Shown here one piece after another: positions 7,653-21,613 of a DNA stretch of 64,000 nucleotides (position 1 is its first letter; each line of letters opens with the position of its first letter). Location of the stretch: contig NZ_JAVYIM010000004.1 in NCBI RefSeq assembly GCF_035968265.1, forward strand, positions 124,001 through 188,000, read 5' to 3'. The notes beneath the pieces were generated by a model, which made no database searches, was not told the DNA's origin, and worked only from the letters and a program-made list of their open reading frames with translations. The stretch is from Nitrosarchaeum sp. GTDB lineage: Archaea > Thermoproteota > Nitrososphaeria > Nitrososphaerales > Nitrosopumilaceae. The translations under genes were made by a program, and so were the position numbers.

Positions 7653-7811
7653 ATGGCTGCACGCAAGTCATCTCCAAGAAAAATTCGTCTGTTAAAAAAG
7701 ACTAGACAGACTTCAGCTGTACCAGCTTGGATTATTCTTAGGACTAAAAGAGGCGTTAGATCAAATCCAAAGCGTAGAGCTTGGAGATCAACAGATGTGG
7801 AGGTTGGTTAG
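7653..7811 (+). CDS. rpl39e: 50S ribosomal protein L39e
   Basis: 52-residue, very basic protein of the large subunit exit-tunnel region. Seen: start MAARKSSPRKIRLLKK, then the diagnostic core VPAWIILRTKR and NPKRRAWRS of L39e. Length matches the family (about 50 aa). The stop TAG at 7809-7811 abuts the L31e ATG at 7812, the usual archaeal L39e-L31e pairing. No Shine-Dalgarno is needed if the message is leaderless. Confidence 0.95.
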   Translation: MAARKSSPRKIRLLKKTRQTSAVPAWIILRTKRGVRSNPKRRAWRSTDVEVG

Positions 7812-8312
7812 ATGTCTCAAGAGTTAGAAAGAGTGTATACTATCAATTTAGGTAAAGTTTTACTTTCAGTGGACACACATCGTGCACCACGAGCTATTAA
7901 CATGATTAAAGAATTTGCTCGACATCACATGAAGACGTCTGAAATCAAAATTGAAGAAGATCTTGCTCATATTATTTGGTCAAAAGGAGTACGTAGTCCT
8001 CCACGAAAAATTAGAGTTAGAATGAGTAAAACTGATGAAGGTTACATTTTGGTTTCCCCGTTTACTGATGAACCAGAAACTCCAGCTAAAGAAGTAAAGA
8101 AAGAAACACCAAAAGAAACTCCAGCTAAAGTAAAAGAAGCATCAGCTAAAGAAGTAAAAGAAACTCCATCTAAAGAAGTAAAGAAAGAAACACCAAAAGA
8201 AACTCCAGCTAAAGAAGTAAAAGACACACCATCTAAAGTAAAGAAAGAAGCACCAGCTAAAGAAGTAAAGAAAGAAACTCCATCTAAAAAAACACCTAAA
8301 AAATCTAAATAA
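7812..8312 (+). CDS. rpl31e: 50S ribosomal protein L31e with long Lys/Glu/Pro repeat tail
   Basis: Residues 1-85 are a normal L31e (VYTINLGKVLL, RAPRAINMIKEFARHH, IIWSKGVRSPPRKIRVRM). Archaeal L31e normally ends near residue 80-95. Here the frame continues for another 80 residues of degenerate repeats built from KETPAKEVK and KETPSK units, highly charged and predicted disordered. The tail is in frame with no stop or frameshift, so it is part of the protein. It may contact rRNA or other factors at the tunnel exit; that is inference. aIF6, the frequent next gene, is not here. Confidence 0.92.
   Translation: MSQELERVYTINLGKVLLSVDTHRAPRAINMIKEFARHHMKTSEIKIEEDLAHIIWSKGVRSPPRKIRVRMSKTDEGYILVSPFTDEPETPAKEVKKETPKETPAKVKEASAKEVKETPSKEVKKETPKETPAKEVKDTPSKVKKEAPAKEVKKETPSKKTPKKSK
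8076..8309 (+). repeat. Degenerate in-frame repeat encoding the L31e tail
   Basis: Repeated units on the pattern AAAGAAACTCCA-GCTAAAGAAGTA encode (K/V)ETP(A/S)KEVK. About ten imperfect units lie in the last 235 bases of rpl31e. Such a tract can expand or contract by slippage. Confidence 0.75.
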
Positions 8313-8346: not shown

Positions 8347-9297
8347 TTATTCTAATTGGTATAAATCTAATTTATAATCAATGCTGCAGTCAGGATGTGT
8401 CCAATCAAGTGTATTTTCTTGAGGAATCATTCCTAATGGATCATATTTTTCAAACTTTGTCATTCCTTGAATAGAAGATAACATTACCACTTTTGATTCA
8501 CTTGAAGATGATGACATATCAATATGTGAGCTAGATTCACCAAGTATTCCATTGGTTAGATTTGAAATTGAATTTAAAACTCCTGCTGGGATGTTGTTTC
8601 CGCCCACTACATAGAGCATTGAATGCTTTACAGAGTGTGGTGGTGCATTTTCGTATAACATTTTAAGTGAATCTCTTAAAGAATCTTCAATTTTTTGACC
8701 ATCTTTACTAGTTGTTAGTATGTTTGTTTCATTTGGAATTTCTGAAGAACTCAATGAACTAACTACATGCATTATTGCATCATTTGCAATTTTGTAACAT
8801 GTCTTTGGGCTTAAATCTGGATTACTTTCTAATAGTGAATCATTATCTAGAACAACTGTACACTGTGAATCTGTTTTTACTCTTTTTAACGAAATGCCTG
8901 AATTGAAAATTCTATCTTTTTCATATTTGAATGGCATTATCGCAAATGAAATTAGCCCTTTGTTTGACTCTTTACAAATTTCTGAGACTACAGGAGATAT
9001 TGCAGAACCTGTTTTTCCTGCTAAATTAGTCATAAGTATGATTGTAGAATAATTTGAAATTTTGGACTTTATCTGGTCTGCCACTTTGTATGTTGATCCT
9101 CTGATTAACTGAACAGATGGATTGATGACTGAATCTGTAGAGACCTTGATTGAATCATTTCCTGACTGTAGGTCTTTTTGATCATTGCTGATAATTAGGC
9201 AATCTGAATTTAGAGTGTCTTTGGCCTGTATTGCTAATTTTGAGCCTGCACCGCCTAAGCCAATAATTAAGATCGGTTCTTTTACTTGAAAAGTCAT
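8347..9297 (-). CDS. FtsZ/tubulin-family protein, divergent thaumarchaeal type
   Basis: 316 aa. The N-terminus IIGLGGAGSKLA matches the first FtsZ glycine loop, and NLAGKTGSAISPVVSEICKE aligns with the tubulin signature GGGTGTGAAPVIAEIAKE, but the glycine-rich loop is degenerate. I see no NxDFxD-type T7 catalytic loop. Thaumarchaea divide with Cdv/ESCRT proteins, and the lone FtsZ-like protein described from Nitrosopumilus (Nmar_1262, as I recall) is reported as degenerate, so a role in division is doubtful. Downstream of the methylthiotransferase by 73 nt on the same strand. Confidence 0.75.
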   Translation of the reverse strand: MTFQVKEPILIIGLGGAGSKLAIQAKDTLNSDCLIISNDQKDLQSGNDSIKVSTDSVINPSVQLIRGSTYKVADQIKSKISNYSTIILMTNLAGKTGSAISPVVSEICKESNKGLISFAIMPFKYEKDRIFNSGISLKRVKTDSQCTVVLDNDSLLESNPDLSPKTCYKIANDAIMHVVSSLSSSEIPNETNILTTSKDGQKIEDSLRDSLKMLYENAPPHSVKHSMLYVVGGNNIPAGVLNSISNLTNGILGESSSHIDMSSSSSESKVVMLSSIQGMTKFEKYDPLGMIPQENTLDWTHPDCSIDYKLDLYQLE

Positions 9298-14632: not shown

Positions 14633-15472
14633 ATGCGAAGTCAAGGTATGAGTGCACAATCTGACCGACTAGGAAGAATGCCAAGTTTGGGTTCACTTGC
14701 AAAAATCTCCGTTGGATTAATTTTAATTGCAATCGTTTCTTCGGCTTTTGTTTATGCAGAGACCTCAACTGTTGAGGTAAATGGAGTCTCTTATGATGTT
14801 GATTATACTGGCACAGAAGTAACTGTTTCTTCAATGACTGCTGATGCTGATTTTGTTTCTTTAATTATTGAAGTGGATGTTACAGGTTCTCCGGGAACTT
14901 TGGAAATTACACTAGATAGAAACTTTTTTGATTCTGTTTATCAAGGTGAAGATGATGACTTTATCGTTTTAGTTGATGGTGATGAGCCAGAATATTCTGA
15001 AACAAATACCACAGATCAAAGTAGAACTCTAAGCATTTCCTTGCCTTTTGGAACTGAAGAGATTGAAATTATTGGCTCTCAATTTGGTTCATCTGAAGAT
15101 ACACCAGTAGAGGAAGAAGTTATTCAACCTGAAGAAGAAGTAACTCCACCAGTAGAGGAAGAAGTTATTCAACCTGAAGAAGAGGAAGAAACAATTCCTA
15201 CACCTATTGAGAAACCAGTCGATGAGAAACCAAAGACAGAATGTGGACCTGGAACAATTCTACAAGATGGCGTTTGTGTTTTAGATGAAAGATGCGGACC
15301 TGGAACTGTTCTTGAAGATGGTGCGTGTGTAGTAGAACCAGTTACAGAGTCTGAAGTTGCACCTCAAGGATTAGGAAAACAACTAGTCATTGGAGTTATT
15401 GCAGGATTTATTATCGCAGGTATTGTTGGACTTGTTTTGGCTATAATGTCAAAAGCAAGTAAGAGTAAATAA
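14633..15472 (+). CDS. Secreted/membrane-anchored protein with Glu-Pro linker and Cys-Gly repeats
   Basis: 279 aa, unrecognised family. A basic N-terminus is followed by a hydrophobic segment (about residues 25-42) ending VYAE, typical of a signal sequence. Then comes a beta-rich domain of about 120 aa, an acidic linker with repeated PVEEEVIQPEEE units, two CGPGTxLxDGxCV repeats, and a C-terminal transmembrane helix with a short Lys-rich tail. This architecture suggests a cell-surface protein anchored at the C-terminus with the domain held off the membrane. Confidence 0.75.
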   Translation: MRSQGMSAQSDRLGRMPSLGSLAKISVGLILIAIVSSAFVYAETSTVEVNGVSYDVDYTGTEVTVSSMTADADFVSLIIEVDVTGSPGTLEITLDRNFFDSVYQGEDDDFIVLVDGDEPEYSETNTTDQSRTLSISLPFGTEEIEIIGSQFGSSEDTPVEEEVIQPEEEVTPPVEEEVIQPEEEEETIPTPIEKPVDEKPKTECGPGTILQDGVCVLDERCGPGTVLEDGACVVEPVTESEVAPQGLGKQLVIGVIAGFIIAGIVGLVLAIMSKASKSK

Positions 15473-19431: not shown

Positions 19432-19920
19432 ATGCAGGCAGTAACTCAAAACAGATTGGATCTATTTGCAGAGATGGAGGCAAAATATGAAAAAAAAGAT
19501 ACTGCCTACTTTGTGAATCTTTTAACTCATCCAGATTTTGTCATAAGAACTCGGGCTACTTGCATACTAGTTGATTTTGGTGGCGAAGATAAAGTTCCAC
19601 ATGTGGCGCGAGTTTTGAAAAATGATACAAATGAACTTGTAAGACATGAAGCAGCATTTTCACTTGGACAGATGTGTTTGTCCAGTTGCATTCCTCCTTT
19701 AGCAGATGCCACACTTAATGACCCTAGTTTGTTTGTAAGACATGAAGCTGCAATAGCACTTGGTGTAATTGGCTCAAAAGACGCAAAAGCAATTTTAGAA
19801 AAAGCGTTAAATGATCCAGAAACTCCCGTAGTAGAGTCTGCCGTGGTCGCATTATCCAATATTGAATTTATGGAAAAGTTAAGTAAGAATGAAAAGTTTG
19901 CAAAACTAACAGGTGGATAA
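19432..19920 (+). CDS. HEAT-repeat protein resembling one half of deoxyhypusine hydroxylase
   Basis: 162 aa, four to five HEAT repeats. Two adjacent repeats carry HE pairs: [12 protein letters not shown] (H72-E73) and [13 protein letters not shown] (H104-E105), 32 residues apart. Deoxyhypusine hydroxylase uses four HE pairs in two such halves to bind a di-iron site. From memory the human enzyme has KHELAYCLGQM and VRHEAGEALGAIG with 33 spacing, very close to this. Either a homodimer rebuilds the iron site or the protein is a PBS-lyase-type HEAT scaffold. The Kazal-cupredoxin gene starts 1 nt after its stop. Confidence 0.75.
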
Positions 19921-19921
19921 G

Positions 19922-21613
19922 ATGAATTTTACAGTTGGAATAATTGCAGCAGTGGGAGTTTTAGTAGCGATTAGTTTGGTTTTCATTTCAATGGATCCTG
20001 GATATATTGTAGAACCTGAAGCAAAACCTGTTGCATGTACTATGCAATATGATCCGGTTTGCGGTGTTGATGATATCACTTATGGTAATTCATGTATGTT
20101 AGGTGCAGCAAATGTACAACTTGCATATCCTGGTGAATGTGTGGTTCAAAAACCATTACAAGATGGATTTACCAGAATGACATCTACACAACATCCAGGA
20201 GTTGGCCATGAATCACATCAATCAGTTTCAGTCATTCCATTATCTGATACAGTTTATTCTGGCACATTACACTATGACGCATCTGAACCAATTCAACTAA
20301 TTGCTTTACATGGTCCACTAAAAGATGGCGAAGCTAAAGGACAACCAACTTGGACTCCAGATGGTACAACAAAATATGCACTTACATTTGTAACTCCTGA
20401 TAGTTCTATTGGAGAATGGAAGTTTGCAGGTAATGCAGTTGCAATTCACACAAAAAATACAACACCATTTACTGTTGATTACAAAGTTGATAGTTTGATG
20501 TCTGATACTGTAATGTCTGGAACTATGGATTCAGTACAAGACCCTGGAATGGGACATGAATCTCACCAAATTGCAGTAATTATTGCTCCATCAAGTGATG
20601 TCTATACTGGAATTCTTTCATACTCTGCATCTGAGCCAATTCAACTGATATCATTAAGAGGTCCAATTGGTCCTGATGAAAATCCAGAAAAAATTTGGAC
20701 TGTAGATGGTACAAATATTTTTGAGATGACATTTGTTGATCCTCAAAATACAATGGGCTCTTGGGAGTTTTCAGGAAATGCACTTGCAGTTCACACTAAA
20801 AACACTACTCAGTTTACAGTAAGTTACTCTGTCAGTGCTACAAAATCACCTGGGATTATATCTCCAGTTATGACAATGCCTGCTCTTCCAACAACTCATA
20901 CAGTTTCAATTCCGCAAGGTGTGTCATCTCCTGGATGTGAGACTAGTGATACTTGTTATCTGCCATATTCTTTAGAGATTAATGTTGGCGATACTGTCTC
21001 ATGGAGTAATGATGATACTGCAGCACATACTGTGACTTCAGGAACTCCAGATGGAATGGATGGTCTATTTGATTCTGGATTGTTTATGTCTGGAACTACT
21101 TTCCCATTTACTTTTGATAATGCAGGAACATATCCTTACTTTTGTTTGGTTCATCCTTGGATGACTGGACAAATTGGCGTAAATGAATTTGAAGAGATGT
21201 ATGTAAATCCAACTGAAGAACCTGTTGAAGAACCAATAGCAGAACCAGTTGAAGAACCTGCACCAGTTGAAGAACCAATTGCAGAACCAACTCCTGAACC
21301 AACAGAGAAACGTTCAGCACCAGTTGAAGTTACAATGGCATTGGGTTCTAGTTCTCCCGGATGTGAAACTACAAACGAATGTTACCTTCCTTATACAGTT
21401 GAAATTTACTCTGGAGAACCAGTAGTTTGGATTAATGCTGACTCTGCAGCTCATACAGTAACTAGTGGAGTAAATGCAGTACATGATGGATTATTTGATT
21501 CAGGTATGATAATACCAAAAGAAACATGGGAAAATTTCTTTACTGATGCTGGCGAGTATGATTATTACTGCATGTTACATCCTTGGATGACAGGCAAAGT
21601 AATCGTACAGTAA
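19922..21613 (+). CDS. Exported Kazal-domain and double-cupredoxin protein
   Basis: About 563 aa from ATG 19922 (AGGTGG at 19911-19916 fits; a GTG at 19913 overlaps it). Order: N-terminal membrane anchor (3-23); Kazal inhibitor-like domain with [18 protein letters not shown]; two tandem copies of a domain of about 95 aa, each opening with GHESHQ and closing with HTKNTTxFTV; cupredoxin 1 (FCLVHPWM); a Pro-Glu linker with PVEEPIAEP repeats; cupredoxin 2 (YCMLHPWM). His, Cys, His and Met type 1 copper ligands are all visible in both. It is probably an electron carrier or copper-binding surface protein. Confidence 0.85.

Follow-up and report, generated by a model that had tools for sequence, protein, structure and literature searches.

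Why does an archaeal gene for the ribosomal protein eL31 run on, in frame, into a repetitive tail longer than the conserved protein itself? The question is raised by one open reading frame in the window analysed here, a 64,000-nucleotide stretch of a Nitrosarchaeum sp. genome (Table 1). The original prediction placed L31e beside the exit tunnel, where factors acting on nascent chains dock, and for yeast this is borne out by the available portions of two published accounts, which describe eL31 as a docking protein of the tunnel exit (PMC10118133, PMC9197937). The accessible text of the first of these also counts eL31 and uL22 together as the second universal adapter site (PMC10118133), and uL24 is counted among the tunnel and vestibule proteins in the available part of a further source (PMC13338714). 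By homology, the window protein would belong to the large subunit and lie at the tunnel exit.

The first half of the protein is a complete eL31 domain. Pfam Ribosomal_L31e (PF01198) matches residues 6-73 at 68.6 bits, above the curated cut-off of 25, which places the protein in this family by profile score, and the NCBIfam L31e equivalog matches at 87.3 bits against a cut-off of 68. The core predicted by AlphaFold from 36 aligned sequences (pLDDT mostly 92-96) has the eL31 fold and superposes on archaeal eL31 chains with Z 14.5 and rmsd 2.7 over 85 residues, and, for a second such chain, with Z 14.2 and rmsd 1.4 over 82 residues. These chains align end to end with the core and end where the window tail starts. 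The genome (1.53 Mb, 8 contigs) encodes a single copy of eL31.

The in-frame charged repeat tail that had been described behind a full L31e is confirmed as a segment of 85 residues, rich in Lys/Glu/Pro/Thr/Ala repeats, of which 49% are charged, 14% are proline and 9% are hydrophobic. Ten residue types (A, K, E, P, T, S, D, G, N and Q) account for 91% of it and TRF arrays lie within it, which makes it a low-complexity region. The expected disorder is likewise predicted by AlphaFold, with pLDDT of 43-54 and no secondary structure along the tail. The description of the array as a KETPAKEVK repeat holds in part: tandem repeats are present, but they form a mosaic of KETPAKEVK-like units rather than copies of a single clean unit. 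When the tail was used as a query against its own genome, it matched only itself at E values up to 10. Trypsin would leave one peptide of at least 7 residues from the entire tail.

Table 1. Coordinates of the eL31 locus in the window and of the uL24 gene from the same genome
Feature	Position	Strand	Basis or remark
eL39, directly upstream of eL31	7653..7811	+	Pfam Ribosomal_L39, 60.1 bits; adjacency
eL31 open reading frame	7812-8312	+	166 aa, ATG to TAA
eL31 core domain, residues 1-81	7812..8054	+	Pfam/NCBIfam L31e; AlphaFold; alignment to archaeal eL31 chains
C-terminal low-complexity tail, residues 82-166	8055..8309	+	Composition; pLDDT; TRF arrays inside
Tandem repeat array, KETPAKEVK-like units	8075..8282	+	TRF rows, periods 12 to 84, best score 287
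Stop codon TAA, 3' of the tail	8310..8312	+	
Tubulin/FtsZ-like gene, convergent with eL31	8347..9297	-	Pfam Tubulin GTPase domain
uL24 of the same genome, with 51-residue Lys/Glu/Pro/Thr low-complexity C-tail	L240:14032-14529 (G000:C3)		

The genes for eL39 and eL31 likely belong to the same operon, and a Nudix gene precedes eL39. In a scan for promoters and terminators, promoter-like sites were no commoner than in shuffled sequences. On the 3' side, the product of the tubulin/FtsZ-like gene scores far under the FtsZ equivalog cut-off, and this gene adjoins L31e in many relatives.

Among these relatives, L31e was found in 211 of 250 genomes of the window's family (f1, which we take to be the Nitrosopumilaceae), in 143 of 150 genomes of a class sample and in 147 of 151 genomes of a phylum sample. 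Genes were read from 158 loci, three of them without an L31e match, and from 80 GTDB loci, the two sets overlapping. The 131 distinct rows obtained for the family comprise 101 complete genes, 25 cut by a contig end and 5 containing N. All 101 complete genes carry a tail, of 19-190 residues with a median of 83, and 89 of the tails have at least 50 residues. The ordinary length with a stop at the core, which the original prediction had named as counter-evidence, occurs in none of them (0/101), the shortest tails being of 19-23 residues. As an open tail of this kind recurs in every one of these genes, it is not an assembly artefact of the window genome. In 22 genomes of the family assembled as a single contig the tail measures 23-143 residues, and in a 23rd (G022) it has at least 366 residues, reaching the end of the stretch examined; the small genome G051 (1.23 Mb) retains a tail of 114 residues. 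Shorter tails are found in family f3 (17 of 17 complete genes, 16-76 residues) and in the complete genes of f2 (13-40 residues), and the one gene of f5 has a tail of 102 residues; the tailed families are presumably all ammonia oxidisers. A tail-less level of 7-10 residues is seen in f4 (5/5), f6 (1/1) and two of the three f7 genes; in the third (L142) the contig ends before the repeat tail does. Three further genes from the class, L145, L146 and L147, have tails of 91, 28 and 31 residues.

Across the family, the interior of the L31e repeat tail is a frequent place for contigs to end, for example at L003, L015, L165 and L229. Among the matches listed for multi-contig genomes, a contig start lies within 250 nt past the tail side in 20 of 68 minus-strand L31e matches, and within 250 nt of the 5' side in none of 62 plus-strand matches; the 80 GTDB loci, which overlap the first set, give 21 cases on the tail side versus 0 on the 5' side within 300 nt. 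Because the array breaks assemblies, the tail is easily missed, and truncation probably affects many of the family's public L31e proteins.

The new observation made here is that long low-complexity C-terminal tails occur on eL31 and uL24 together and that their charges covary. Twenty-seven ribosomal proteins, Pfam-confirmed, were collected from the window and four further stretches of its genome, and for each the longest C-terminal run with at least 85% low-complexity residues was determined. This run reaches 97 residues in eL31, 68 in uL24, 37 in P1/L12 and 29 in L10, and at most 8 in the other 23 proteins, so that only eL31 and uL24 attain 40 or more; the same two rank highest, eL31 before uL24, among the 133 ORFs taken from the window and the first two of these stretches. 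A search of the class sample found uL24 in 149 of 150 genomes, and its tail has at least 20 residues in 41 of the 43 family genomes in which both genes were read. G247 and G249, of another genus (g22) with genomes of 0.8 Mb, are without such a uL24 tail and have eL31 tails of only 19-23 residues. The net charges of the two tails are correlated across 41 genomes of the family (rho 0.81) and over 15 genus means (rho 0.88), in a test that keeps the effect of proteome charge in; the subsets give rho 0.82 for 33 low-GC genomes and 0.44 (p 0.10) for 15 genomes of genus g14. The lengths of the two tails are not coupled within the family (rho 0.05, n=41). Because tail charge follows proteome charge, with rho 0.69 against the charge of the proteins encoded in the flanks (n=45 loci), the pairing of charges may be passive. 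GC content was considered as a driver of tail charge and rejected (rho 0.22, p 0.14, not significant). The window's eL31 tail has a net charge of about +8, and many tails of its genus (g1) are among the most positive. Over the 101 complete tails of the family, net charge ranges from about -26 to +19, or from -0.24 to +0.17 per residue; it is positive in 44 tails, negative in 35 and close to zero in the others. Across the family, low complexity and a proneness to disorder are retained in the tail as its sequence, length and net charge change.

The reading that we favour over slippage, recruitment by motifs and RNA binding, and that we hold tentatively, is that the tails of eL31 and uL24 form a polyampholyte fringe at the tunnel exit that is tuned by lineage and independent of sequence. 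Both proteins sit at the exit, and for this reason their flexible tails may be placed around it. The work of the fringe would hang on bulk properties (reach, charge density and a charge matched to the cytosol) and call for no fixed sequence. It would keep nascent chains and adjacent ribosomes separate and in solution, and may offer weak multivalent contacts to exit-site factors, with the repeat array acting as an evolutionary adjuster of length and charge. Judging from the sequence, the tail would be translated, would persist on the ribosome and would have a role there.

A functionless origin by neutral or nearly neutral slippage, in which a freed C-terminus at the surface tolerates an array whose make-up mirrors the proteome and the pattern of mutation, is in our estimate rather unlikely. 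It agrees with the high turnover of the array by in-frame units. The three nearest genomes encode identical core proteins, the pairs being separated by 6, 4 and 2 synonymous changes over 243 nt, and their tails differ by insertions and deletions of in-frame units; variability of length, which had been anticipated among strains, is seen here between the closest genomes. Periodicity exceeds that of all 200 shuffles in 76 of 113 tails of at least 40 residues. In G091 (L070, a single-contig genome) the array is missing and a tail of 32 residues is left, by natural deletion or misassembly, and genus g22 has come near to losing both tails. The dependence of tail charge on proteome charge is also what slippage would produce. 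The repeat units have a pN/pS of 0.75 overall and above 1 in some groups, and the tails of the window's genus, at 0.75-0.98, are close to neutral.

The gene order downstream points in the same direction. The gene for aIF6 lies 3' of L31e in the tail-less f4 (5/5), in the class outgroups (5/5) and in 12 of 13 phylum loci (three of the aIF6 genes Pfam-confirmed), and it was never found there in the loci of the tailed families f1, f2, f3 and f5; in the window its place is held by the tubulin/FtsZ-like gene. A freed 3' end probably allowed the C-terminal tail to arise. The correspondence is not strict, as f6 and two f7 genes have no aIF6 neighbour and yet no tail, and L145 carries its tail with aIF6 in place.

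Slippage alone nevertheless fits the tails poorly. None of the 101 complete genes of the family is tail-less, those of small genomes such as G051 included; the tails are limited to two exit proteins among 27 ribosomal proteins, and extensions of the same pair appear in a second lineage. The core is strongly constrained (pN/pS 0.12 in the window's genus, 0.15 in g14), and the values for the tail span 0.44-0.98, the lowest being that of the g14 linker. In about 53% of tail codons a single base change is enough to give a stop, and in a simple neutral simulation 40% of tails remain without a new stop at 0.1 substitutions per site and 23% at 0.2; silent divergence among the g14 genomes is about 0.5 per pair. 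Against this expectation, arrays stranded behind a stop are few, being found in 2 of 98 genes with readable downstream DNA, both of them frameshifts, and six other lines flagged automatically have the look of normal adjacent sequence. The array of G082 is intact but lies behind a frameshift, L181 is also frameshifted, and in L014, from the fragmented assembly G013, a decaying array contains stops. Repeat homogenisation, by which stops can likewise be purged, is left out of the simulation, whose result therefore speaks against pure drift but does not prove function.

Specific recruitment, in which short conserved motifs of the tail bind a defined exit-site factor and the repeats provide a spacer or a multivalent copy number, appears improbable. 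The motif KK[VI]x[DEG]K is present in 45 of 115 tails of at least 35 residues, compared with 1.6% of shuffles, and 36 of these 45 have it at the same offset from the core. A second, K[ED][TS]KK?[VI], is present in 44 of 131 eL31 tails and 17 of 43 uL24 tails (shuffle means 2.0 and 0.4). The tighter constraint on the g14 linker would suit a binding role, as would the confident helical mini-domain predicted within the tail in two genomes of genus g4. However, both motifs were selected by visual inspection of the very data in which they were counted, they are nearly confined to g14 and its near relatives, shared ancestry inflates the counts, and KK[VI]x[DEG]K is found in none of the 15 tails of the window's own genus.

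A basic nucleic-acid-binding tail, like that of histone H1 or of lysine-rich ribosomal proteins, clamping rRNA or mRNA, would suit the charge of the window tail and of many others in its genus but is highly improbable, because net charge is not conserved as positive and changes sign across the family, and recruitment of rRNA, which the original prediction had suggested, is likewise not supported as a general role.

A fringe of this kind at the exit can be set beside several known systems. The yeast RAC, an exit-site chaperone system, docks on eL31 and uL24, according to the available text (PMC9197937), and these are the same two exit proteins that are tailed here. The yeast eL31 residues reported there as nearest to Zuo1, R79 and E81, would correspond to about residues 75-77 of the window protein if the alignment is extended (PMC9197937). 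Low-complexity regions are described as frequent in archaeal ribosomal proteins, with S3, S24, L10 and L12 named (PMC6821194), and the likeness lies in charged tails kept on abundant ribosomal proteins despite their cost; the accessible part of that paper, in contrast, neither names archaeal L31e or L24 nor describes a pairing at the tunnel exit. The eL31 of trypanosomatids and other N-terminally extended forms (PDB 8a3w, 4v8m and relatives) also join an eL31 core to a long additional segment, the window core matching residues 88-160 of a 188-residue extended chain, but there the extension is at the N-terminus, whereas the window tail is C-terminal. Full-text literature searches, judged by title and the start of the abstract, returned no paper describing tails of this sort. 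Disordered extensions of ribosomal proteins are thus already known, and the joint variant on two exit proteins was not found in the literature searched.

Extensions of the same two proteins recur elsewhere in the phylum. Among 119 phylum genomes outside the family with both frames known, a long uL24 frame (at least 150, as an open-frame figure) accompanies a long eL31 frame in 16 of 19 genomes, versus 19 of the remaining 100. By family means, long uL24 is found in 5 of 5 families with long eL31, which may be close relatives, versus 4 of 29 others. Fifteen uL24 and fifteen eL31 genes, chosen for their long frames, were read as sequence. In those eL31 genes (L149-L158, L334-L338) whose core was fully covered by the match, the extension is at the N-terminus, of low complexity and acidic to mixed in charge; a C-tail of 94 residues listed for L151 is false and results from an incomplete profile match to its core. 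In all 15 uL24 genes, which were selected for length, the extension is a charged C-terminal tail of 35-130 residues. Three genomes of f15 combine long eL31 frames with ordinary uL24, and the reverse, long uL24 beside eL31 that is not long, is found in f30, f20, f31 and f25.

A broader proposal, possible but doubtful, is that at least two distant archaeal lineages have independently built a charged disordered exit fringe on eL31 and uL24, its charge set to the cytosol, its length set by repeat turnover and, in one genus, with a mini-domain tethered to it; such a fringe would be a prokaryotic, sequence-independent counterpart of the eukaryotic exit-site chaperone platforms. Should the fringe exist, the tunnel exit would have evolvable, lineage-tuned surroundings even where an archaeal genome is small, and very abundant microbes would carry out co-translational folding or targeting in an environment absent from the solved ribosomes found.

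The segment embedded in the L31e tail of L084 (G025) and L086 (G027), both of genus g4, has 45 residues and is 98% identical between the two genomes. AlphaFold predicts it as a helical mini-domain (pLDDT 75-92) carried at the end of about 95 disordered residues. It matched no Pfam family, one NCBIfam line at E 0.03 lies far under its cut-off, and no solved sequence relative was better than E 0.67. The best 50 Foldseek rows for the whole model look, by description, like eL31 chains and are therefore uninformative on the segment. Repeats of other kinds are found elsewhere in the window. A 279-residue protein encoded at 14633-15472 (+) contains acidic repeats of the EEVIQPE type and a hydrophobic stretch near its C-terminus, and matches no Pfam family. 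At 19913-21613 (+), a 566-residue protein consists of repeated stretches, which we take to be copper-protein-like, joined by a linker of EPVEEPIAE repeats.
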